DNA of 64,000 nucleotides from Alphaproteobacteria bacterium (GTDB lineage: Bacteria; Pseudomonadota; Alphaproteobacteria; GCA-2731375): NCBI GenBank assembly GCA_016776605.1, contig JADHTB010000003.1, positions 186,001-250,000 on the forward strand, in the 5' to 3' direction. This document shows, one piece after another, positions 13,684-55,290 of this stretch. The translations under genes were made by a program, and so were the position numbers. Numbering within the stretch: position 1 is the first letter of the stretch; every line of letters begins with the position of its first letter. Below the pieces are notes generated by a model. It had not been told where the DNA came from. It saw only the letters and a list, made by a program, of their open reading frames with translations, and ran no database searches.

Positions 13684-14910
13684 CTAAGTCTCCAGCACAT
13701 GGCCGGCGGCGAACAATGCCTCTATTTCGGCCTCGGGCAGGCCGGCATCGGCCAGGATCTGGCGGCTATGCTGGCCAATTGCAGGGGGGTCTTCGCGGAC
13801 CGAAAAACTGCGGCCGTCCATCTCGAGGGGCAGGCGCGGGGTCTTGACCTGGCCGCCGCCGGGCACATTCATCTTGCGCAACTGACCGCCTGCATTCAGG
13901 TGAGGGTCATCCAGTAGATCCTCGGGCTTGTTGACCGGGCCGAATGCCAGTTGCGCCGTATCGCACAGGGCCAGCAGCGCATCCGTTGAAATGCCTTTGC
14001 ACATCTCTGCAATGGCGCCAACCAGCCAATCCCGTTGCGCCACCCGGCCGCCGTTGCTTTGCAGGCGTTCGTCCGCCAAGAAATCGGGTCGTTCAAAAAC
14101 ATCACAAAATCGCAGCCATTGGGTATCCGTCACCACGCCAATAAAAATCGCCTTGCCCTCGGCGCTTTCAAAAGTGTCGTAAATGCCCCAGGCCCGGATT
14201 GGCACCGACATAGGCACCAACGGCTTGCCATTCATGCCATGCTGCACCATATGCTGGCCCACCGCGAAGACGGCTGTTTCGAATAACGCGGCCTTGACCA
14301 ATTGCCCCATGCCCGCAGTGCCCGCAGTGCCCACCGCACCGGGTGCGTCGCGCTCGCGCAAGGCGGCCAGCACGCCGATCACGCCAGCCATACCGCCCAT
14401 GATATCCACCACCGATGCGCCCGCCCGCAGGGGCTGGCCCGGCGGCCCGGTCATATAGGCTAGGCCGCTCATCATCTGTACGATCTCGTCCAAGGCCCGG
14501 CGTTCTTCGTAGGGACCGGACAGGAAGCCTTTCAATTGCAGATAGATCAAACCGGGATTCAGGGTCTTTAGCGCCTCATAGCCCAGGCCCAGCCGGTCCA
14601 TGGTGCCCAGGGCAAAATTTTCCAGCAAGACATCCGAACGCCGTACCAGGGCCTCCACCGCGGGCCGGCTACCGGGCGCCTTCAGGTCGATGGCCAGGCT
14701 TTGCTTGTTGCGGCAGAACAAGGGAAAAAAGCTAATGCCGACACCTTGCAAGTGCCGCGTCCGGTCGCCGTCGGGCACCGGTTCGATCTTGGTTACCTGC
14801 GCGCCCAGGTCGGCCAGGATCATGCCCGCCGACGGCCCCATCACCGCATGGCTGAATTCCAACACCTTGATCCCCGCCAAGGGCAGGCCTGCCCGGTTAC
14901 TCATACTCAA
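13684..14910 (-). CDS. CaiB/BaiF family CoA-transferase
   Basis: LAGIKVLEFSHAVMGPSAGMILADLGAQVTKIEP N-terminus. Confidence 0.93.
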   Translation of the reverse strand: MSMSNRAGLPLAGIKVLEFSHAVMGPSAGMILADLGAQVTKIEPVPDGDRTRHLQGVGISFFPLFCRNKQSLAIDLKAPGSRPAVEALVRRSDVLLENFALGTMDRLGLGYEALKTLNPGLIYLQLKGFLSGPYEERRALDEIVQMMSGLAYMTGPPGQPLRAGASVVDIMGGMAGVIGVLAALRERDAPGAVGTAGTAGMGQLVKAALFETAVFAVGQHMVQHGMNGKPLVPMSVPIRAWGIYDTFESAEGKAIFIGVVTDTQWLRFCDVFERPDFLADERLQSNGGRVAQRDWLVGAIAEMCKGISTDALLALCDTAQLAFGPVNKPEDLLDDPHLNAGGQLRKMNVPGGGQVKTPRLPLEMDGRSFSVREDPPAIGQHSRQILADAGLPEAEIEALFAAGHVLET

Positions 14911-14988
14911 CCTCGTTCCAAAATGATTTTATCCATGCCTCGGATGACAATGCGCCGGATACCGCGGCATGGCGACAAGACATGGCAT

Positions 14989-16254
14989 CTACCAGGCGCC
15001 ACGGGTGTCGATCACGAACTTGTCCTTGATCAGATCGCGGCCGACATGCATGAAGGCGAAGTGATCCACCAACAGCAGAATGACGTTGGCCTGTTCAATG
15101 GCCATATCGAAATCGGCCAATTCCAGGCCGCGATCGCTCAACGCCTTGGGCAGGGCGGAAATATGGGGTTCGACCACCAATAATTTCGCGACTTTACTGT
15201 CGGCAAGCTGGGCTACGATCTCGACTGCCGGGCTTTCCCGCAGATCATCCACATCCGCCTTGTAGGACAGGCCCAGACAGGCGACCACGGGATCCACCAG
15301 GGACTGTGCCCGCGCCACCACCTTGGCGCAGACGATGCCCGGCATGGCGTCATTGATCTGCCGCGCCATGCGGATAATCCTGGCGTCTTCCGGCGCACCC
15401 TCGACGATGAACCACGGATCGACCGCAATACAATGGCCGCCGACGCCGGGGCCGGGCGACAGGATATTGACCCGGGGGTGCAGGTTGGCCATCTGGATCA
15501 ATTCCCAGACGCTGATTTTGTGCCGGTCGCAAATGACCGACAATTCGTTGGCGAAGGCGATGTTCACGTCCCGGTAGGCGTTTTCGGTCAGCTTGGACAT
15601 TTCCGCCGTGCGCGCATTGGTCACCTTGCATTCGCCCTGTACCACGATGCGATACAGGGACAAGGCCCGCTGGGCGCATTTGCGGGTCATGCCGCCAATC
15701 ACCCGGGCGTTATTCACCACCTCTTCGATAATCCGCCCCGGCAGCACCCGTTCAGGGCAATGGGCGACGTTGATATCCGCCATCTCGCCCTTGTCATGGG
15801 GGAAACTGAGGTCGGGCCGCAAGGTCGCCATCCAGCGCGCCATCTTTTCTGTCGTACCCACGGGCGAAGTGGATTCCAGGATTACCAGATTGCCTTTTAC
15901 TAAAACCGGCGCGATGGCCTCGGCCGCCGCTTGTACATAATTGAGGTCCGCGCCGAGGCTGGCGCCATGGCCCGTGTCATCGCCCTCCCGCAGCGGCGTG
16001 GGTACGGCAACCAGAAAGGCGTCGGCGGCCTGCACCGCTGTGCTGACGGACAATTTGCCATTTTCCACCACCCGGCGCACCAGGGCATCCAGGTCGGGCT
16101 CGCCGAAATGCGGTTTGCCGGCGCTGATGCTGTCGACTACGTTTTGGCTGGTATCCGTGCCGAGGATCTGCACCCCGTGATTGGCAAACACCGCCGCCGT
16201 GGGCAGACCGATATAACCCAGACCGACAACGCTGATTTTATTAAAGCTGTTCAT
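14989..16254 (-). CDS. wecC: UDP-N-acetyl-D-mannosamine dehydrogenase
   Basis: [50 protein letters not shown]. Confidence 0.92.
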
Positions 16255-17353
16255 GGCGCAGTCTCTCCACAATCCGTTCGCTGGCCCGGCCGTCGCCGTA
16301 CGGGTTATGGGCCCGTGACATAGCCTGGTAGGCGTCATTATCATCCAAAAGAACGCCCAAACGCTCCAATAGTCTATCGGTATCGGTGCCGACCAGCTCT
16401 ACCGTTCCGGCATCCACTGCCTCGGGCCGTTCGGTGGTGTCGCGGGTGACCAGCACCGGCTTGCCCAGCGAGGGCGCTTCTTCCTGGACGCCGCCTGAAT
16501 CCGTGACGATCAATTCGGCGCGGCGCATCAGATAAAGAAACGGCAGATAATCCAGGGGCGGGATTAAATGCACATTGTCGTGGCCGCTTAGCACGTCGTT
16601 GGCCGCTTTTTGCACATTTGGATTCAGATGCACCGGGTAGACCACGACCACATCATCGCGCATGGCCAAGGTCGCCAGGGCACGGCAGACCCGTTCCAGA
16701 CCGCCGTCAAAATTCTCCCGGCGGTGGCCGGTCGTCAAAACCAGGCGCTTGGCCGGGTCGATAAAATCAAATTGCTTTTGCAATTGCGACTGCAGCCCGG
16801 GTGATCCGTCAATGATCCCGATCGCCTGCAAAAGGGCATCGATCACCGTGTTGCCGGTGACCAGGATGCGCCCGTCCTCGATACCCTCGGCCAGCAGGTT
16901 TTGCCGCGAAGTCTCGGTGGGGGGAAAATGCAGATCGGCGATGACCGAGGTCATCTTGCGGTTCATTTCCTCGGGCCAGGGGGAATATATATTGCCCGTG
17001 CGCAAGCCCGCCTCGATATGACCCACCGGGGTTTTTTCATAATAAGCGGCCAGGGCGGCGGCAAATGTCGTGGTGGTATCGCCCTGAACCAGGACCCGGT
17101 CGGGCCGGCAGTCCTGGATTACCCCCTGGACACCGGAAAGCGCGGCCGAGGTAATGTAACTCAGGCCCTGGCCCGCCTGCATGATATCCAGATCATAGTC
17201 GGGCGTAATATGGAACAAGGCCAGCACCTGATCCAGCATCTCCCGGTGCTGGGCGGTGACGCAGACCAAGGACTCAATGCCCTCCGCCGCCGCCAACGCC
17301 TTGACGACCGGGGCCAGCTTGATGGCTTCAGGCCTGGTGCCGAATACGGTCAA
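16241..17353 (-). CDS. wecB: UDP-N-acetylglucosamine 2-epimerase (non-hydrolysing)
   Basis: [44 protein letters not shown]; apparent TTG start; overlaps wecC. Confidence 0.92.
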
Positions 17354-17460
17354 AACCTTGATGGGGCACCCTCTCAGATGTTCGGTGCAATATGAAAAGC
17401 CACAATTCGCCAGACAACAGGCAAAATACTACAATGGCGTCGATTGAATAGCACGTGAAG

Positions 17461-18624
17461 CTAATTTATCGAACCCGGACTAAACCGCGCCGGCGACAGA
17501 TCAGCAGCGATGACACCGAATTGTTTCAGATCCGCGGGAACATCGTTGCCCACTGCCAAGGCCGCCGCGACCCGCCCCATGGATGGCGATGTTTGAATGC
17601 CGTAACCGCCCTGTCCGGCCAGCCAGAAGAAGCCCGGCACCTTTGGGTCGAACCCCACGACCGGCGTCTTGTCGGCAACGAACGAGCGCAACCCGGCCCA
17701 ACTGCGGATAATGCGGCCAATTTCCAGTGTGGTCGCCGTTTGCAGGCGGTCCACGGCAATGGCGATATCCAGCTCCTCCGGCTGAACATCACAGGGTGCC
17801 ATCGGCGTTTCATCCGCCGGCGAGCCCATCAGCGCGCCGCTTTCGGGGCGGGCGTAGAATTCTTCGTCCGCGTCGATAAATGCGGGCCAGGCGGCAAAGT
17901 CCATATCGCCGGGGCCATCGAACAGAATGGCGGTACGGCGTTTCGGCATCAGCCCCACACGCTTTGCGCCTGCTATATCGGCGACTTCATCGCACCAGGC
18001 GCCGGCTGCGTTGATGATCACCTTGGCGAAAATATCCTCGCCTCCTGCATGAACATGCCAGCTGTCTCCTCGGCGTTCGAGGCCGGTAACCCTGGCGTCC
18101 TGGCGAAGCTGGACGCCGCGCTTGCGGGCGCCGCGCAAAAAGCCCTGATGCAAGGCATTGACGTCCATGTCCATGGCGTCCGCTTCCAACACCCCAGCCG
18201 CGATGTAACCCTGGCGCAGCACCGGCACCAGTTCCCGGGCCTCCGCCCCCGTCAGGCGCTGCATGCCATCAAGATGTTTGGTACCCGCGTCATAGGCCGC
18301 ATCCAGGGACGCCATCTGGTCTTCACGCCCGACAAACAGGGCGCCGCGCGGTGTCAGGATTACTGTGTCGGTGAAGCCATCGGGCGGGTCGATTAAGAAA
18401 GAACGCCCGCCGCTGGTTAACGCGCGGATCGGGGCGTTGCCATAGGATTCCGAATACAGCGCGGCGGAGCGGCCAGTGGTGTGATAGCCGGGCTGGGCTT
18501 CCATTTCCAGCATCAGCACACTGCCCTCGGTGGATAGAAAATAAGCGGCCGAGGCACCGGCCATGCCGGCGCCGATAATGACGAAATCAAACGATTGACC
18601 GTGCGATACCAAATCAGACGCCAT
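17461..18624 (-). CDS. FAD-dependent oxidoreductase (DadA/glycine oxidase-like)
   Basis: FDFVIIGAGMAGASAAYFLS; ATG at 18624. Confidence 0.88.
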   Translation of the reverse strand: MASDLVSHGQSFDFVIIGAGMAGASAAYFLSTEGSVLMLEMEAQPGYHTTGRSAALYSESYGNAPIRALTSGGRSFLIDPPDGFTDTVILTPRGALFVGREDQMASLDAAYDAGTKHLDGMQRLTGAEARELVPVLRQGYIAAGVLEADAMDMDVNALHQGFLRGARKRGVQLRQDARVTGLERRGDSWHVHAGGEDIFAKVIINAAGAWCDEVADIAGAKRVGLMPKRRTAILFDGPGDMDFAAWPAFIDADEEFYARPESGALMGSPADETPMAPCDVQPEELDIAIAVDRLQTATTLEIGRIIRSWAGLRSFVADKTPVVGFDPKVPGFFWLAGQGGYGIQTSPSMGRVAAALAVGNDVPADLKQFGVIAADLSPARFSPGSIN

Positions 18625-18751
18625 GGGATTGATGATCTCCGCCGCTCCCGAACCCCGCGCCCGGCAGCCGCTTCCAGCATAAAATTTCATCTGGAAAATG
18701 CAAGAAACGCCACGGATGCCGGCCTTGCCGCGCTTGGCGAAATAGGCTGCT

Positions 18752-19000
18752 TTAGTTGCCCAAGGCTTCGAATTTGTCCATCAGTTCGTCTTGGCTTTCA
18801 ACAAAATCCGGGTGCTGCTCAATGCAGTCGACCACCGGGCAGACCAGACGGCATTGGGGTTCGTCCTCGTGGCCGACGCACTCGGTGCATTTGAAGGCAT
18901 CGATGGTATAGAACGGGTCGCCAGCCGAAATTGCGTCGTTGGGGCAGACGGGCTCGCAGGCATCGCAGGCGGTGCAGGTTTCGTTGATCAACAGTGCCAT
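18752..19000 (-). CDS. 2[4Fe-4S] ferredoxin, YfhL/Allochromatium type
   Basis: CTACDACEPVCP and CTECVGHEDEPQCRLVCPVVDC motifs. Confidence 0.93.
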   Translation of the reverse strand: MALLINETCTACDACEPVCPNDAISAGDPFYTIDAFKCTECVGHEDEPQCRLVCPVVDCIEQHPDFVESQDELMDKFEALGN

Positions 19001-19024
19001 GATCGGCTCCTTCCTCGGATAAAC

Positions 19025-19870
19025 TCAGGATGCTTTCGGCAGCGCGTCCAAATCGGCCAGTTTCTGATGCCGAAAGGCGCCCCACAAAGCCGCGCCAATG
19101 GCGCCGGCGTAAATGGAATCGGGGTGGCTTTGCAGGGTCAAATTCATCTTTTGCGCCACCATGCGTTCCGCCATGGTCGCCACCAGACCGCTGTCGTTGG
19201 CCAGACCGCCGGTTACCAGTACCACGCCCTCGTCAACGCGGGTGGATTTCAGCAGCTTCACCAGCCTGTCGGCCATGGAGGTGTGAATGCCCTTCAGGAT
19301 GTTCTGGGTCGAAATGCCCCGGCTGACCATGTTGATCACATCGGTTTCCGCCAATACGGCGCAGATGGAACTGACGGCCTCCGGGTCATCGGCCTGTTGC
19401 GACAATGCACCAACCTCGTCCAGGGCGACGCCCAGATAGCGGGCGATATTTTCCAGGAACTGCCCGGAGCCCGAGGCGCACTGACTGGTCATCTTGTAGG
19501 TCAGAACCTTGCCCCGTTCGTCCACCCGGATGGCCCGGCCATGCAGGGCGCCCACATCCATGGCCGCGCGGGTTTCGGGCTGTAGATAAATGGCGCCACG
19601 GGCATGGGTGGTCATGGAGTAGAAGTGCCCGGTGCGAAATTCAATATTCTCGCCTTCACCGGTGGTTGACACATAGTCGATGTCGTCCTCCATCAGGCCC
19701 GCCTCGGCCAGCATTTCATCAAAACATTGACGCGCCAGCTCCATGGGGTCGCGGCGGCGAATACGTTCCACCCGTTTGCTCAGCCATTCAGGCTTTTCGC
19801 CGCCCTGGCTCTGAAACAGCACGCCCTTGATGGCGCCGCTGCCGACGTCGATACCTGCCGTGGTCTGCAT
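19025..19870 (-). CDS. bcrD: benzoyl-CoA reductase subunit D (BcrD/BadG), ATPase subunit
   Basis: TTAGIDVGSGAIKGV, ASGSGQFLENIARYLG, VTGGLANDSGL; 281 aa; fourth in the bcrCBAD order. Confidence 0.92.
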   Translation of the reverse strand: MQTTAGIDVGSGAIKGVLFQSQGGEKPEWLSKRVERIRRRDPMELARQCFDEMLAEAGLMEDDIDYVSTTGEGENIEFRTGHFYSMTTHARGAIYLQPETRAAMDVGALHGRAIRVDERGKVLTYKMTSQCASGSGQFLENIARYLGVALDEVGALSQQADDPEAVSSICAVLAETDVINMVSRGISTQNILKGIHTSMADRLVKLLKSTRVDEGVVLVTGGLANDSGLVATMAERMVAQKMNLTLQSHPDSIYAGAIGAALWGAFRHQKLADLDALPKAS

Positions 19871-19871
19871 A

Positions 19872-21209
19872 TCAATGCCCTCCTGCTTGTGCTGCGTCCG
19901 CTTCTATGGCCCGGCGCGCGAAGGTCGCCGCGCCCAGGGCGCCGGTGTAGATGGAGTCCGGATCGATGTTGATGGTCAGATCGCCGTAGTTTTCCTTGAT
20001 CAATTGCTTCAGGGCCTTCACGGCGGCGCCGTTATTGGCAACCCCGCCGGTGAAGGTGAATTGATCGCGAATGCCCCCTGAACGGGACAGGATCGACATG
20101 GCGCGCAGGATGATGGCCCGGTGCAGGCCGGCCAGAATATCCTCCCGCGCCTCGCCCAACGACAACCGGTCACGCAATTCGGCACCGGCGAACACGGTGC
20201 AGGTGGAATTAATGCGGACGTTGCGGGTTGATTTCAGGGCCAGGGGCCCCAATTCGTGCAGGCCCAAATTCATCTCGTCGGCGATATAGCCCAGATAGCG
20301 GCCACAGCCGGCGGCGCAGCGGTCGTTCATTTGAAAATTTTCGACGATGCCGGCGGGATCGACCTGGATTGCCTTGGTATCCTGACCGCCGATGTCCAAC
20401 ACCGTCGCGGTATCGGGATACATCACATGGGCGCCCAGGCCGTGGCAGAGAATTTCCGAACGAATATGTTCCTTGGAAAACGGCAGCCGGGCCCGGCCAT
20501 AGCCGGTGCCGATGACGTAGGTTTCCTCCAACGTCATATCCAGTGCGGCCTTGACCGGCGCGCGCACCGCATCGGATGCCGCCGACAAGTCATCGAAGGC
20601 GATAAAGGTACGGTCCAGTGCCCGCATCAGCTTATCGGACAGGCTTTCATCGGAAATACGGTTCTCCACATCGATGATGGAACGGTCATAAACATTCAAT
20701 ACGTAGTCAAAGGGCAGTTTGCATTCCCCGGCCACCTCCTCGCCCACCGCCAGGTAGCGCGAACCGGCGATATCACGGAAGAAGTCCGACTTGCGGTTAG
20801 CGCCGGCCGCGAATTGCGCCGGCGCCTCCCTGTTCAGGCGGCGAAAAATCTCTGCCAGGGCTTCGTGCAGCGCCGCCGTATCGGCGCCAAAGCGGTCAGG
20901 CGCGGCGTTGGCGGTGCAGGTCTGTTCCAGGTCCGCCAGCTGCTCCAAAAATTGTTCCAGACGGAAATCCCGAACCAGCTGATCCAGAAAACTATCCAGG
21001 CGGCCGTCCAGGGCCCTCACCCCATCCAGGCTATGGCGGAACAAATAGAAGCGGGCGTTCAACAACGCCTCCTGCTTTGCGACCTCGGCCGCCACATCAT
21101 AGTTGGAGCGGGAATTGGTAATGCCCCGGCCTATAACCTGCAGGTCTTCGTTCATGACCACCGCCTTGGTGGTGGTGGAGCCTAGATCGATCCCGACAAA
21201 GCATTGCAT
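19872..21209 (-). CDS. bcrA: benzoyl-CoA reductase subunit A (BcrA/BadF), ATPase subunit
   Basis: [37 protein letters not shown]; 445 aa. Confidence 0.93.
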
Positions 21210-48290: not shown

Positions 48291-48304
48291 TTGACGTCGG
48301 TCAA
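48291..48304. promoter_or_regulatory. FNR/FixK-like site TTGAC-GTCG-GTCAA
   Basis: Dyad TTGA-N6-TCAA about 86 bp upstream of the oxidase operon's first ORF. Confidence 0.5.
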
Positions 48305-48389: not shown

Positions 48390-48560
48390 ATGAGTGATCA
48401 AAATACAGGTTCCGGCGGCGCGCCGGAGGAGCGGGTGCCCGCCATGCAGCGGCTGCTCGATAATCCATTTCTTTTACTCTTCATGGGCGTGGCCACACCC
48501 GCCGCGCTGTATTTGCTTTGGGGGGTGATGGAATTGTCCCAGATCCCTCTGGCGCCGTAA
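48390..48560 (+). CDS. small single-TM protein (56 aa) preceding oxidase subunit II; absent from the supplied ORF list
   Basis: MSDQNTGSGGAPEERVPAMQRLLDNPFLLLFMGVATPAALYLLWGVMELSQIPLAP; AAAGGGA upstream; 24 bp before coxB. Confidence 0.72.
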   Translation: MSDQNTGSGGAPEERVPAMQRLLDNPFLLLFMGVATPAALYLLWGVMELSQIPLAP

Positions 48561-48584: not shown

Positions 48585-49130
48585 ATGGCAATTTTCCCGC
48601 CGCAAAACCGTCTCTGGTGGAAAGAACCGCTATCGGGCATAGAAATCACCTGGATCGGTGTCGCATTTGTGTGGGGCCTTGTTATGTTCGGCACCATGGT
48701 TGGCTGGCATTTCGTGGGCAAGCAAAACCTGTCGAACGAGACCTACCGCATCAACCCCAACGCCTTTGGTGAAAAGGTCGAGGCCATGGTGGAGCGTTAC
48801 CAGGTCCGCGAAGAGGGCGATACGGGGATACCCGTGGTCCATCCGGCGCCGGGAACCGACATCTACATGCTGGGACGGCTATGGGAATGGTACCCGGTGT
48901 TGGAACTGGAGAAAGACCAGAAATACCGCCTGCACCTGTCATCCATGGATTGGCAGCACGGCTTTTCACTGCAACCACAGAACATCAACCTCCAGGTTCA
49001 TCCTGGTTATGAAATGGTCCTGACTATCACGCCGGACAAGAGCGGTGAATATGCGGTTGTCTGTAACGAATTCTGCGGCATCGGTCATCACACGATGGTC
49101 GGTAAAATCCATGTCATCGATAATAAATAG
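48585..49130 (+). CDS. cytochrome c oxidase subunit II (B-family/ba3-like)
   Basis: CuA motif CNEFCGIGHHTM; one N-terminal TM segment. Confidence 0.9.
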   Translation: MAIFPPQNRLWWKEPLSGIEITWIGVAFVWGLVMFGTMVGWHFVGKQNLSNETYRINPNAFGEKVEAMVERYQVREEGDTGIPVVHPAPGTDIYMLGRLWEWYPVLELEKDQKYRLHLSSMDWQHGFSLQPQNINLQVHPGYEMVLTITPDKSGEYAVVCNEFCGIGHHTMVGKIHVIDNK

Positions 49131-49139
49131 GGGCTGAAC

Positions 49140-50870
49140 ATGGCTGTTGATACACAAGCACCATCCCGCGGGTTCATCGGCGCAAGCTATCGAACCTGCC
49201 CGGAAACCGGTCTTAAGGTCTGTTCCCAGGCCGAGGCCTTGATCAAGGTAAATGCCGTGGTTGCGGTGGTTTTCCTGGCTGTCGGCGGCTTTTTTGGCCT
49301 GATGGTGGCGTTGACCCGGTGGCCGGCGGTGCATTTACTGCCGGCGGATTGGTTCTATCTGCTGCTGACCGCCCATGGCGCCGATGTTCTGTTGTTCTGG
49401 GTGATTTTTTTCGAAGTGGCGGTTTTATACTTCGCCTCGGCGATAATTTTGAACTGCCGGCTGGCGGCGCCAAAATTCGCCTGGCTGGCCTTTGTCCTGA
49501 TGGTGGTTGGCGCGGTTCTCGCTAACGTCGCCGTGTTACAGGGCGAATCCAGCGTCATGTTCACTTCTTACGTTCCCATGCAGGCGGCGCCCCATTTCTA
49601 TCTGGGTCTGATCGTCTTCGCCGTCGGCACATTGATCGCCGTTTTCTGCTTTTTCGGCACCCTGGTGATTGCCAAGGAGGAAGGCAGTTATGAAGGCTCG
49701 GTCCCGCTCGTCACCTTTGGCGCTATCACGGCGGCGATCATCGCCGTCTTCACCATCGCCTCGGGCGCGATCATCCTGATCCCCACATTCCTTTGGTCGA
49801 TCGGTTATATCAGCCACATCGATCCGCTGATGTACAAGGTGATCTGGTGGGGCATGGGGCATGCATCGCAACAGATCAATGTCTCTGCCCAGGTGGCGAT
49901 CTGGTACGCCGTGGCGGCCATGCTGCTGGGCGCCAAGCCGTTGTCGGAGAAGGTCAGCCGCATGGCTTTCCTGATGTATATTCTGTTCCTGCAACTGGCA
50001 TCCGCCCATCATCTGTTGGTGGAGCCGGGCGTCAGTTCCGAATGGAAGATCTTCAATACGTCCTACGCCCTGTATCTCGCCGTCCTGGGCAGCATGATCC
50101 ATGGCATGAGCATTCCGGGCGCCATGGAGGCGGCGCAACGGCGCAATGGCTTCAACAACGGTATCTTCGAGTGGCTGCGCAAGGCCCCTTGGAGTAACCC
50201 GGCCTTTTCCGGCACCATGCTGTCAATTGTGATTTTTGGTTTCCTGGGCGGCATCAGCGGCGTCGTCATGGGCACCGAACAATTGAACCTGATCATGCAC
50301 AATACCTTGTACGTGCCGGGACATTTCCATGCCACCGTGGTGGGTGGTACGACCTTGGCCTTCATGGCGGTCTCCTATCTGTTGGTACCGCTGATTTTCC
50401 GCAAGGAAATCATGTTCAAGAAGATTGCCCAATGGCAGCCCTACGTCTTTGGCGCGGGCGTCGCGGGTATCTCGTTGTTCATGATGGGCGCGGGTACCCT
50501 CGGCGTGGCCCGGCGGCATTGGGATATGGGCTTCTCCGATGCGGCCATGAGCTTTGACTATCCGGCCACCGCCTTCCTGATGATGGGCCTGAACGGCATC
50601 GCCGCTCTTTGCGCCGCCCTGGGCGGGTTGATGTACGTGTTGGTGATTGTTTGTTCGGTATTTTTCGGTAAAGCCCGGACGCCGGAATCCATTGCCGCAT
50701 TCCCAACCTTGCCCAAAACCGGTGGTGCCGCGACAGTCACCACCTATGGCAGCGAAGCACATCCGAAACTGCCGGGCACCGTGGTTCTGGTCAGCGTCTT
50801 CTTCGTGGCGTTCGTCCTCTACTACTACGTCAATTGGAAGTACTTGTCCGAGGTCTGGCCCCTGAGCTAG
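49140..50870 (+). CDS. cytochrome c oxidase subunit I (haem-copper oxidase)
   Basis: Many TM segments; ASAHHLLVEPG, YVPGHFHATVVGG His motifs. Confidence 0.92.
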   Translation: MAVDTQAPSRGFIGASYRTCPETGLKVCSQAEALIKVNAVVAVVFLAVGGFFGLMVALTRWPAVHLLPADWFYLLLTAHGADVLLFWVIFFEVAVLYFASAIILNCRLAAPKFAWLAFVLMVVGAVLANVAVLQGESSVMFTSYVPMQAAPHFYLGLIVFAVGTLIAVFCFFGTLVIAKEEGSYEGSVPLVTFGAITAAIIAVFTIASGAIILIPTFLWSIGYISHIDPLMYKVIWWGMGHASQQINVSAQVAIWYAVAAMLLGAKPLSEKVSRMAFLMYILFLQLASAHHLLVEPGVSSEWKIFNTSYALYLAVLGSMIHGMSIPGAMEAAQRRNGFNNGIFEWLRKAPWSNPAFSGTMLSIVIFGFLGGISGVVMGTEQLNLIMHNTLYVPGHFHATVVGGTTLAFMAVSYLLVPLIFRKEIMFKKIAQWQPYVFGAGVAGISLFMMGAGTLGVARRHWDMGFSDAAMSFDYPATAFLMMGLNGIAALCAALGGLMYVLVIVCSVFFGKARTPESIAAFPTLPKTGGAATVTTYGSEAHPKLPGTVVLVSVFFVAFVLYYYVNWKYLSEVWPLS

Positions 50871-50983
50871 GGGTCCGGCACGAAATAGGGAGCCGGGCAC
50901 TTTTGGCCCAACTGGATTTGGTCCAACTGGCCCGCTCCCAATTTTCCACCTTGTTTAGGAAACCGTCCAGGGGAGACAGGAAT

Positions 50984-51871
50984 ATGGCTACCGCCTTCAG
51001 TCGATCGCAGTTCAGCCAATTACACAACGTCTTCAAGCTGCGCATCGGCTTTGCCATCATGCTGACGGCGCTGGCCGGTCTGGCAATGACCCCTGGCGCC
51101 CATTTATCAATTCCCGAAATTGCTGCCCTGGCCCTGGCTGTACTGGTCTCCGCCGCCGCCGCTGGCGCCCTCAACCAGTATCTTGAACGGGACCTGGACG
51201 GAACCATGGCGCGGACCGCGAACCGGCCCTTCGTGACCGGTTTCTATCAGGCCGGGCCGAAATGGCTTTGCGCCATAATCCTGTTGATGGCCGGCGCATT
51301 CGTCCTGGCCTGGTCCGTACTGAATTTTGCAACGGCGGTGTATGTGTTTCTAGGCGCCTTTTTCTATGGCGTGGTCTACACCGTCTGGCTAAAGCGGCGC
51401 AGTTGGATGAACATCGTGGTGGGCGGCCTGTCGGGCAGTTTCGCGGTGCTGGCCGGCGTGGCGGCCGCCGATCCCGACCTGGCCACGGCGCCGGTCTTGC
51501 TGGCGGTGGTGTTATTCCTGTGGACGCCGCCGCATTTTTGGAGCTTGGCCATGGCCCTGCACAAAGACTATGCGGCGGCCAAGGTGCCGATGTTGCCGGT
51601 GGTCATTGGCGACGGCCCGGCGGCGCGGGTGATCCTGGCCCATACGGTGGCCCTGGTCGCTTTGTCCCTGTTGCCGTTCGCTTTTGGCATGGGCTGGCTT
51701 TATTTGGCCGGAGCCCTGATTGGCGGTGCTTACTTCGTCTGGCGCGCCATTGAATTGGTGCGCGATCCCGGTCCGGTGCTGGCCATGAAGACCTTTTTCG
51801 CCTCGCTGATCCAGCTGACCCTGCTGTTGGCCGTTGCCATCGCCGACCCATGGGTGATGGGGCTGGTATGA
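50984..51871 (+). CDS. ctaB: protohaem IX farnesyltransferase
   Basis: AAAGALNQYLERDLDGTMARTANRPFVTG; WTPPHFWSLAM. Confidence 0.93.
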   Translation: MATAFSRSQFSQLHNVFKLRIGFAIMLTALAGLAMTPGAHLSIPEIAALALAVLVSAAAAGALNQYLERDLDGTMARTANRPFVTGFYQAGPKWLCAIILLMAGAFVLAWSVLNFATAVYVFLGAFFYGVVYTVWLKRRSWMNIVVGGLSGSFAVLAGVAAADPDLATAPVLLAVVLFLWTPPHFWSLAMALHKDYAAAKVPMLPVVIGDGPAARVILAHTVALVALSLLPFAFGMGWLYLAGALIGGAYFVWRAIELVRDPGPVLAMKTFFASLIQLTLLLAVAIADPWVMGLV

Positions 51872-52689
51872 CGAATGGGGTGAAATGGGGAACCATCATG
51901 GCAATGGTGGCGATGCTGCCCGCCGCGCTGTCGGCGGCCGCGCCCCTGGTGCCGGATGAAAAGGGAGCCCTGGCGATCAGCCAGGCGGCTCTGGGGCGCC
52001 AGATTGACGACCACAGGTTTGTCGACAGCAGTGGCAACACGGCCCGCCTCAGCGATTTTCGCGGCAAACCGCTGGTGATCAACCTGATCTATACCGCCTG
52101 CATCCGTAGCTGCCCGGTGATCGTGCAGACCCTGGCGGACGCCGTGACCGATGCTCAGGGCGCGTTCGACGAAGACAGCTTCAACGTCATTACCGTTGGT
52201 TTCGAGGCCGGCTCCGATACACCAGACCGCATGGCGTCCTTCGCCAAAACTCAGGGCATTGATCTGCCGAACTGGCGCTTTCTATCCAGCGACGGCCGGA
52301 CCATCGAGAAATTTGCCGAACAGTTGGGTTTTGTCTATTACGCCTCTACCCAGGGCTTTCAGCATTTATCCCAGGTCAGCGTGCTGGATAGTCAGGGGCG
52401 TTTGTACAGCCAGATCTATGGGGAAAATTTTGCCAGCCCGTTTCTTGTGGAACCTTTGAAGGATCTGGTCTTTGGCCGCAACGCCGATGCAACTTCGATC
52501 ACGGGCCTGATCAACCGCTTGCGTTTGTTCTGTACCCTTTACGATCCGGCGGCCCAGCGCTACCGCTTCGACTATTCCGTCTTCATCGGCTTTTTCATTG
52601 GTCTGGCGGCGCTAACAACGGTCGGCAGCATTTTGGTGCGCAATCTTTGGCGCCGCCGCCACGATCTGCAACTCTCGATCAGGCACTGA
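51868..52689 (+). CDS. SCO1/SenC family copper chaperone
   Basis: GKPLVINLIYTACIRSCPVIVQTL (CxxxC); start chosen at an ATG near the ctaB end, ORF open from 51850. Confidence 0.87.
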   Translation: MTNGVKWGTIMAMVAMLPAALSAAAPLVPDEKGALAISQAALGRQIDDHRFVDSSGNTARLSDFRGKPLVINLIYTACIRSCPVIVQTLADAVTDAQGAFDEDSFNVITVGFEAGSDTPDRMASFAKTQGIDLPNWRFLSSDGRTIEKFAEQLGFVYYASTQGFQHLSQVSVLDSQGRLYSQIYGENFASPFLVEPLKDLVFGRNADATSITGLINRLRLFCTLYDPAAQRYRFDYSVFIGFFIGLAALTTVGSILVRNLWRRRHDLQLSIRH

Positions 52690-52732: not shown

Positions 52733-54292
52733 GTGCAAGCCTTGCAACGTCCATTGCAGGCCGTCTTCAATGTTCTGGAAGGCTGGCTCGATAGGCCATT
52801 CGGGCCGGATTGGAACCCTTTGTACCATCTGGGCGCATTGGGCTTTTTCTATTTCTGGGTCGTCGCGGTCAGCGGCATTTATATCTATATCTTCTTTGAT
52901 ACCGGCATCTCGGAAGCCTACGATTCAGTCGAGTATATGACCCATGAGCAATGGTATCTGGCCGGCGTCATGCGGTCTTTGCATCGTTATGCCTCCGACG
53001 GCATGGTGGCGATGATGATGTTGCATTTGGTCCGCGAGTTCTCGCTGGACCGTCATCGCGGCAGCCGCTGGTTTACCTGGTTCACGGGTGTGCCGATCCT
53101 GTGGCTGGTGGTGATTTGTGGCATCACGGGCTATTGGCTGGTCTGGGATACCCTGGCCCAGTATGTCGCCACCGCCACCACCGAATGGTTGGACTGGCTG
53201 CCGATATTCGGCGAGTCGGTGGCGCGCAACTTCCTGGCGCCTTATTTCCTGGATGATCGTTTTTTTACCTTGATGGTATTCCTGCACATCGCCGTGCCGT
53301 TGATCCTTTTATTGGTGCTGTGGATCCATCTGCAACGGGTGACGAAACCGGAAATTTTCCCCGCACGCGGTCTGGCCATCGGCAGCTTTGCCATGTTGTT
53401 GGGCCTGTCCCTGTTCTGGCCGGCGTTGAGCCAAGGGCCCGCTGATCTGAGCCGGGTGCCGGCGGTGGTGGGGCTGGACTGGTTCTATCTGATCGCCTAT
53501 CCGGTGGTCGAAATATGGGGCGCTGGACCAGCCTGGGCGCTGGCGTTCGGCGGCAGCATGCTGATCGCGGTGCTGCCCTGGCTGCCGCCCCTGCGGAAAC
53601 GGTCAGTGGCGCAGGTCGATCTGGCTAATTGCAACGGCTGTACCCGCTGCCAGGAAGACTGCCCGTTTGCCGCCATCACCATGATCCCCCGCAGCGACGG
53701 CCGCCCGTTTGAACGAGAGGCAATGGTCGACCCCGAATTGTGCACCAGTTGCGGCATTTGCGCCGGCGCCTGCCCCACATCAACCCCGTTTCGCCGGGCC
53801 TCCGCCTTTGTGCCGGGCATCGACCTCACCGACCAGCCCCTGAGTGACCTGCGTCAGCGGATACACGACGGCACGGCGAATTTGACTGGCGACCGCAGGG
53901 TTTTGCTGCTGGGTTGTGCGCACGGCATCGGGACCGGCAAAGCGGTAGCGGACAACGTGGCGGCGGTTCAACTGCCCTGCATCGGTGCCTTGCCCCCGGC
54001 CTTCATCGATTACGTTCTCAGCCGCGATTTGGCCGACGGGGTATTCCTGGCGGGATGCAAGGGCGGCGAATGTTATAGCCGCTTCGGTCTGCGCTGGACC
54101 GCGCAACGATTGACGGGGCAACGCGACCCGCACTTGCGCGCCCGCGTCCCGCGAGAGCGCCTTGGCCAGCTCCAGGCCGGGGCCCGGTCCGGGAAACATC
54201 TCGCCACGGCGGTCCGCGCTTTTCAGGCCGGCCTGCCGCAACGGCCCCCGGAACCGGAAAGCCCCAGGACACGGGAGGCAGAGACGGTATGA
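52733..54292 (+). CDS. cytochrome b N-terminal domain / 2x[4Fe-4S] / MvhD-like fusion protein
   Basis: Cyt b helices (SLHRYASDGMVAMMMLHLVREF; FLHIAVPLILLLVLWIHLQRVT), CNGCTRCQEDCP and CTSCGICAGACP, then LPCIGALPPAFIDYVLSRDLADGVFLAGCKGGECYSRFG. Confidence 0.88.
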   Translation: MQALQRPLQAVFNVLEGWLDRPFGPDWNPLYHLGALGFFYFWVVAVSGIYIYIFFDTGISEAYDSVEYMTHEQWYLAGVMRSLHRYASDGMVAMMMLHLVREFSLDRHRGSRWFTWFTGVPILWLVVICGITGYWLVWDTLAQYVATATTEWLDWLPIFGESVARNFLAPYFLDDRFFTLMVFLHIAVPLILLLVLWIHLQRVTKPEIFPARGLAIGSFAMLLGLSLFWPALSQGPADLSRVPAVVGLDWFYLIAYPVVEIWGAGPAWALAFGGSMLIAVLPWLPPLRKRSVAQVDLANCNGCTRCQEDCPFAAITMIPRSDGRPFEREAMVDPELCTSCGICAGACPTSTPFRRASAFVPGIDLTDQPLSDLRQRIHDGTANLTGDRRVLLLGCAHGIGTGKAVADNVAAVQLPCIGALPPAFIDYVLSRDLADGVFLAGCKGGECYSRFGLRWTAQRLTGQRDPHLRARVPRERLGQLQAGARSGKHLATAVRAFQAGLPQRPPEPESPRTREAETV

Positions 54293-54807
54293 AAACATTT
54301 TTCCGCCCTGCTGGACGATATGCCGGCCAAGCCCTGGTTTATCTGCTGTTCGCGGCCTTTCTGGGTTACTTCGCCTCGGCGCCTAAATACACCCACTTCC
54401 CGCCTGATCAGGCGCTGATCAAACTCAGCCTGGCCCATGGCGCCAAGCGCGTGGGGGGCTGCCGGCGTTTTACCCGGGCGGAACTGCAGGAAATGGCGCC
54501 AAACATGCGCCGCCCCCTGGATTGCCCGCGCCAGCGCCTGCCCGTCGTGGTGGAGTTCGTGATCGACGGCAAGACCCGCTATAGCGCCGCGGTGCCGCCC
54601 ACGGGCCTGTCGGGAGATGGTCCCAGCCGCATCTATCAACGTTTCGCGGTCAGCCCGGGCAAGCATGCCATCGTTGCCCGCCTGCGCGACAGTGATCGTA
54701 GCGAAGGCTTTGACTATGAAACAACAGCCGAGATCGAATTGGCCGCCCAGCAAAGCGTGGCCATCGATTTTCGCCAGGAAATGGGCGGTTTTCTGTTCCG
54801 CTGGTAA
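54289..54807 (+). CDS. hypothetical membrane-anchored protein of the oxidase cluster
   Basis: N-terminal TM (ALVYLLFAAFLGYFA) and beta-rich domain; ATGA overlap with the preceding gene. Confidence 0.72.
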   Translation: MKTFFRPAGRYAGQALVYLLFAAFLGYFASAPKYTHFPPDQALIKLSLAHGAKRVGGCRRFTRAELQEMAPNMRRPLDCPRQRLPVVVEFVIDGKTRYSAAVPPTGLSGDGPSRIYQRFAVSPGKHAIVARLRDSDRSEGFDYETTAEIELAAQQSVAIDFRQEMGGFLFRW

Positions 54808-54873: not shown

Positions 54874-55290
54874 ATGACCTTTATTGCCTGGCAGGCCGAG
54901 TTCGAGACCGGAATCCAATCGATTGATTTTGAACATCGGGAAATGGTGGAGCTGCTAAATCAGCTTTACGATGAGCTTGACCGCGACCCGGATGGCGGCG
55001 CCATAGAGGCGTTTCTAGGCGAGGTTTTTGCCAATATATCGGCCCACTTCGCGCTGGAAGAAAAAATCATGCGCGACACCGCCTATGACGAATATCGGCT
55101 CCACAAACAAGACCACGAACAATTACTGGACGCCATACGCGATATCATGGACGATCATCACAAGGGCCATTTTGGCGAGATTCCCGATCTGCTGTCTGGA
55201 CGTTTAAAAAAATGGTTCGAGGAACATTTTCGTAATTTCGACGCCCGCCTGGGTCATATAAGCGAGGGCGGCGCCATGGCGCATACTTAA
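54874..55290 (+). CDS. bacteriohemerythrin
   Basis: IQSIDFEHREMVELLNQLYDEL; HFALEEKIMRDTAYDEYRLHKQDHEQLLD. Confidence 0.9.
   Translation: MTFIAWQAEFETGIQSIDFEHREMVELLNQLYDELDRDPDGGAIEAFLGEVFANISAHFALEEKIMRDTAYDEYRLHKQDHEQLLDAIRDIMDDHHKGHFGEIPDLLSGRLKKWFEEHFRNFDARLGHISEGGAMAHT

Follow-up and report, generated by a model that had tools for sequence, protein, structure and literature searches.

The cytochrome b/Fe-S fusion protein encoded at 52733..54292 of the window (i.e. the whole analysed stretch of 64,000 nucleotides) and the small anchored protein encoded just after it (hereafter SMALL) may together act as a membrane module whose electron transfer is dedicated to NO reduction, in eNOR-using proteobacterial denitrifiers, a reading to which we give about an even chance. 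It relies on properties of the protein itself (invariant ligands, a bc1-like cytochrome b, an HdrA2-like end), on its genetic context (conserved gene order, co-occurrence with eNOR, linkage to nirS, an FNR/NnrR-type box), on the existence of a sister protein, and on a host genome that encodes NirS and NosZ with no other NOR. The elements of the operon, all on the forward strand, are the following.

48291..48304, +: FNR/NnrR-type palindrome TTGACGTCGGTCAA, upstream of the operon
48390..48560, +: 56-aa single-helix protein before subunit II (SuII), in position and size like subunit IIa of ba3-type enzymes
48585..49130, +: SuII of the eNOR-type enzyme, COX2 cupredoxin with the CuA motif CNEFCGIGHHTM (COX2, 9.6e-5)
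49140..50870, +: subunit I (SuI) of the eNOR-type enzyme (COX1, 3e-66), with His241 and Gln245
50834..51871, +: CyoE/CtaB haem O synthase (TIGR01473, 2.3e-76), true start probably downstream of 50834
51850..52689, +: SCO1/SenC copper chaperone with a C-terminal helix (PF02630, 3.2e-11)
52733..54292, +: fusion protein gene, GTG start, 519 aa, cytochrome b + Fe-S + MvhD/FlpD
54289..54807, +: SMALL, 172 aa, one N-terminal helix and a predicted Ig-like beta sandwich
54874..55290, +: hemerythrin-like protein (PF01814, 2.6e-11), conserved beside SMALL

The fusion ORF is open and co-directional with its neighbours in this compact operon, and its last four bases (54289-54292) overlap the next gene. 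As in the preliminary description, the gene lies between that of SCO and that of a small anchored protein. The protein is made of three parts: cytochrome b helices A-F (residues 1-290), two [4Fe-4S] motifs (292-350) and an MvhD/FlpD domain (about 390-500). In Pfam, Cytochrome_B is matched at residues 27-202 (E=1.8e-21; the cytochrome b part as a whole being residues 27-290), Fer4-type families at 292-350 (best 3.7e-10) and FlpD/MvhD (PF02662) at 405-500 (6.7e-10; 39.5 bits for a cut-off of 22.3). All three domains exceed the Pfam cut-off, and the same three families are matched in 55/55 aligned homologues (E<=0.001), FlpD reaching 4.8e-21 at best. Thus the triple fusion proposed at first from the letters of the DNA is recovered by HMM domain search, including the C-terminal similarity to MvhD, for which the solved MvhD chains 9sw2_D (8.7e-5) and 5odc_D (2.9e-4) are matched as well. 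The predicted model of the fusion is confident overall (pLDDT 86.7, pTM 0.84).

The paired histidines and cysteine motifs that had drawn attention to this protein are strongly conserved. Among 75 homologues His84, His98, His185 and His199 are invariant, which corresponds to two bis-His haem b sites, and so are eleven cysteines (303, 306, 310, 337, 340, 343, 347, 395, 416, 442 and 447); Cys300 is kept in 74 of the 75. The last four of the invariant cysteines (395, 416, 442 and 447) lie in the MvhD part and would be enough for one putative [2Fe-2S] cluster. MvhD carries an N-terminal CxxC, where the fusion has a single cysteine left, Cys395.

The membrane half of the predicted structure matches bc1 cytochrome b (E=1.8e-8). 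In profile-profile alignment the cytochrome b of bc1/complex III is aligned past helix D, via helices E and F of the fusion (E=6e-20); the membrane part thus covers the equivalent of cytochrome b6 together with the N-terminal half of subunit IV. This alignment sets LDWFY of the fusion on the quinol-site motif PEWY, and Asp249-Trp250 are invariant among homologues. The fusion shares with the cytochrome b of bc1/b6f the two bis-His haems and helices A-F, and its DWFY motif is PEWY-like by alignment, but it is devoid of helices G-H and has an Fe-S domain fused on its inner side; unlike bc1/b6f it also has no Rieske or cytochrome c1/f partner in its operon. Concerning orientation, Lys+Arg outnumber Asp+Glu (means of 75 sequences) in the N-terminus, in loops 103-112 and 200-212, and in the segment that follows helix F, whereas acidic residues prevail in the remaining loops. 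From this alternation of loop charge the Fe-S part is predicted to be cytoplasmic.

The soluble half is a single continuous module: a match to HdrA2 (NF040770, E=1.4e-14) spans residues 292-501 and falls at the C-terminal end of the profile (positions 571-768 of 777), i.e. two [4Fe-4S] motifs followed by an MvhD domain, as in the HdrA2 C-terminal module/MvhD (FlpD) described previously (PMC5296606). The fusion differs from HdrA2 in having no HdrA FAD domain, HdrBC or hydrogenase, and in joining the module to a membrane cytochrome b. The link to hydrogenase, formate dehydrogenase or heterodisulfide reductase that was suggested initially holds for the module, which is a genuine HdrA2-type Fer4-MvhD arrangement, but not for the context, since none of these partners is found among the operon genes scanned.

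The layout of the fusion also recalls NosR/NirI/NapH/CcoG, Fe-S proteins of the membrane that assist either the enzymes of denitrification or the assembly of oxidases. NosR has been linked to electron transfer to NosZ, and the layout of NosR/NapH in denitrification is similar (PMC5928378), although their membrane domain is unrelated to that of the fusion. The membrane fold of the fusion is that of cytochrome b and not Fer4_5, an FMN domain is absent and an MvhD domain is added. Fer4_5/NapH-type and FMN domains gave no match in the fusion at E<=0.01, nor do they appear among the families listed for the 55 homologues, which rules out membership of the NapH/NosR/CcoG group.

SMALL is presumably extracytoplasmic. 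Its gene starts at most 20 bases from the fusion stop in 61/65 loci, and its Cys58 and Cys79 are nearly invariant, being lost in two loci (L063 and L157). The fold search with its predicted structure returned no significant solved relative (best E=8e-3), the sequence profile search matched nothing, and SMALL contains no recognised cofactor motif. In five loci (L063, L076, L157, L195 and L199) a tandem pair of fusion genes precedes SMALL. A second haem-copper-oxidase-like protein of ~460 aa is encoded in Beta-, Gamma- and Zetaproteobacteria, in many cases by the gene that immediately follows SMALL (L052:7516-8922, L063:4090-5532, L130:124-1557(-), L157:11490-12869 and ~27 more loci). It keeps the haem ligands and one CuB His (GHV[LM]QF), the CuB HH pair is absent, and it has no NCBIfam name.

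The nature of the neighbouring enzyme had been given as a haem-copper oxidase. A haem-copper enzyme does adjoin the fusion, but its active site is not that of an oxidase: Gln245 of SuI aligns with the active-site Tyr237 of the Thermus ba3 oxidase, and the Gln (SQQ motif) is present in every SuI homologue reaching the active site. Replacement of the active-site Tyr of oxygen reductases by Gln defines eNOR, whose genes are often misannotated as oxidases, and sNOR carries Asn at this position (PMC8756737). Judged by this residue, SuI is a Gln-type eNOR NO reductase; the Tyr-to-Gln change rules out an ordinary B-type oxygen reductase, and the Asn of sNOR rules out that family. The enzyme has the diagnostic Gln and the CuA-type SuII of eNOR (PMC8756737); no cytochrome b/Fe-S partner is described for eNOR in the literature found. 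The match of SuII to TIGR02866 (1.1e-12) is under the cut-off of that family. For the 56-aa ORF (48390-48560), which has no Pfam match, small ORFs are found at the equivalent place in the Thermus and Thermomicrobium eNOR loci.

The host genome encodes NirS (E=1e-149) and a full-length NosZ (1109.7 bits). Its three COX1 genes correspond to an A-type oxidase with HPEVY, a cbb3-type enzyme and SuI of eNOR; among them, in a genome that is 93% complete, there is no cNOR or qNOR. With NirS and NosZ present and no cNOR/qNOR, eNOR is likely the NO reductase of a NirS/NosZ denitrifier. One Cu-oxidase match in the genome (L178) looks like a CopA-type multicopper oxidase and not like NirK.

A pattern-based genome scan, which picks up close relatives, gave 71 loci, mostly from metagenome-assembled Proteobacteria; such assemblies also provide the majority of the fusion homologues. 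Most loci for which sufficient flanking sequence is available show the order SuII-SuI-CyoE-SCO-fusion-SMALL; they belong to Alpha-, Beta-, Gamma- and Zetaproteobacteria and to Magnetococcales. The hemerythrin-like gene is a frequent next gene in Alphaproteobacteria. Linkage to B-family haem-copper enzymes is thus observed across several classes, with the difference that the partner is eNOR and the system one of denitrification. This assignment to denitrification stems from NirS and NosZ in the genome, from the FNR/NnrR-type box upstream and from the unlinked copies lying beside nirS (see below). An FNR/NnrR-type palindrome is present at most 400 bp upstream of SuII in 59/83 loci, versus 6.9% of random 400-bp stretches.

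Among 399 Pseudomonadota genomes eNOR is present in 30, the fusion in 34 and both in 29 (Fisher p=8e-38, a value that assumes independent genomes, whereas the eNOR genomes belong to ~12 families). The only genome having eNOR and no fusion has a contig ending just after SCO. Five genomes have the fusion and no eNOR; completeness does not exceed 82% in four of these, and in three of the five the fusion is on a short contig (about 5 kb or less). The fusion thus pairs near one-to-one with eNOR in proteobacterial denitrifiers. At least nine genomes carry a fusion gene that is unlinked from eNOR; in each of the nine, a nirS homologue is found only a few kb away. The fusion is hence associated with NO metabolism, and not with the eNOR transcript alone. 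Homologues of nirS (>=40% identity) are found in the retrieved flanks of 27/123 records, some of which overlap. In a Magnetococcales-like group (L185, L186, L189, L190, L194, L197 and L201) the eNOR-unlinked fusion-SMALL pair is near cysteine desulfurase, IscU-type or serine acetyltransferase-like genes. The sole plasmid-borne homologue is annotated "cytochrome b N-terminal domain-containing protein". Among plasmid records, the operon occupies 14059-20598 of NZ_CP156080.1 (Defluviimonas sp. SAOS-178_SWC, a candidate culturable host). In loci of Thermus, Thermomicrobium and Haloarcula that are eNOR-type by annotation, no fusion was seen; the fusion is therefore not intrinsic to eNOR, nor needed everywhere. 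On a Thermus plasmid (L128) the eNOR-like genes, with no fusion, adjoin a NirS-like nitrite reductase, an Rrf2 regulator and a DUF542 protein.

Five loci, four of Nitrosomonadales/Betaproteobacteria and one from a further genome, encode a sister protein (L052:5069-7000, L054, L058, L069 and L130:3637-5619(-)). It has the same cytochrome b, including the DWF motif, with Fer2 ([2Fe-2S])-FAD-NAD replacing Fer4-MvhD. These domains are closest to BenC, MmoC and NqrF, families in which NADH is oxidised and one-electron acceptors are reduced. By analogy, electrons more likely enter than leave through Fer4-MvhD in the other version, and the sister protein is the main ground for favouring input as the direction of electrons in the fusion.

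In the reading that we prefer, the donor would be a cytoplasmic reductant: ferredoxin, or else a flavoprotein that binds to the MvhD [2Fe-2S] domain. Having crossed both [4Fe-4S] clusters, electrons would reach the inner haem b of the cytochrome b part first and the outer one next. Their acceptor would be either quinone, at the outer DWFY site, or a periplasmic component that feeds the CuA subunit of eNOR. SMALL would cap the outer face of the fusion. We infer the direction of the electrons, their donor, their final acceptor and the binding of quinone at the DWFY site. It counts against this reading that the operon encodes no donor, be it a flavoprotein or another protein. The preliminary description had already put forward an unrecognised quinone/ferredoxin electron route, an idea that stands with the direction conditional on these inferences. 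The literature search returned no published function for the fusion; an earlier mention in the primary work on eNOR (10.1073/pnas.2316422121) is possible.

The place of the fusion gene, directly after SCO and CyoE, counts against electron input and would fit a role in maturation equally. This makes the main rival a maturation reductase, which we hold to be rather improbable: the fusion would move cytoplasmic electrons across the membrane and reduce Cu(II) or the SCO dithiol for copper loading of eNOR, with SMALL as a helper, the pair being the functional counterpart of CcoG-CcoH in cbb3 oxidase assembly. The succession of CyoE, SCO and fusion in most loci argues for it, as do the near one-to-one co-occurrence with eNOR and SMALL itself, whose single helix plus beta domain is a layout like that of CcoH. 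A copper reductase would nevertheless need neither a full cytochrome b with two haems nor an invariant DW motif resembling a quinone site, and a Fer4_5/NapH-type match is missing. Where the fusion and SMALL are separated from eNOR they are found beside nirS, tandem copies of the fusion exist, and other eNOR lineages show no fusion-type gene, all of which speaks against maturation. It is also unlikely that the fusion is a general quinone reductase that merely belongs to the same anaerobic regulon as eNOR. FNR-type control alone could account for some of the co-occurrence, but the latter reaches 29/30, including genomes in which the genes are unlinked, and the gene order is tight over several classes.

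The PEWY-like site and the Fe-S chain on the N-side are also what quinol-driven bifurcation, or reverse transport, would use. Quinol would be oxidised at the outer DWFY site and its electrons split, one going to eNOR (of very high potential) and the other through the haems b and the Fe-S clusters to a low-potential cytoplasmic acceptor, making reduced ferredoxin or NAD(P)H. A similar scheme exists as a proposal for the anammox Rieske/b complexes that include NAD(P) oxidoreductase subunits (PMC12954380), and several fusion hosts look like chemolithotrophs from their record titles. In the Kuenenia complexes, which also act in nitrogen metabolism, a cytochrome b is likewise coupled to an Fe-S/flavin redox module on the cytoplasmic side, but these complexes comprise Rieske proteins, SUIV and multihaem cytochromes c (PMC12954380), whereas here a single polypeptide is accompanied by SMALL. 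With no Rieske protein or cytochrome c1/f among the operon genes, a SMALL lacking any recognised cofactor motif, BenC/MmoC-type domains that in the sister protein would normally run outward from NADH, and a path that is steeply uphill unless a haem has an unusually low potential, we hold bifurcation to be unlikely. Its most specific form, a Rieske-free cytochrome b complex having NO via eNOR as high-potential sink and sending the other electron to ferredoxin/NAD(P)+, is very unlikely; if true, denitrifying chemolithotrophs would gain low-potential reductant from NO reduction.

eNOR is reportedly more widespread than recognised and has a proposed proton channel. If the fusion and SMALL are its dedicated partner in Proteobacteria, models of energy yield and N2O production in many uncultured denitrifiers have left out part of the electron path. 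The organisms concerned are marine, sulfur-, iron- and sediment-associated, uncultured denitrifiers, in which the partner may serve either electron input or maturation. The fusion provides a ready marker for eNOR operons, and the two natural versions of the protein, Fe-S/MvhD and NADH-reductase, make the identity of the donor directly testable.
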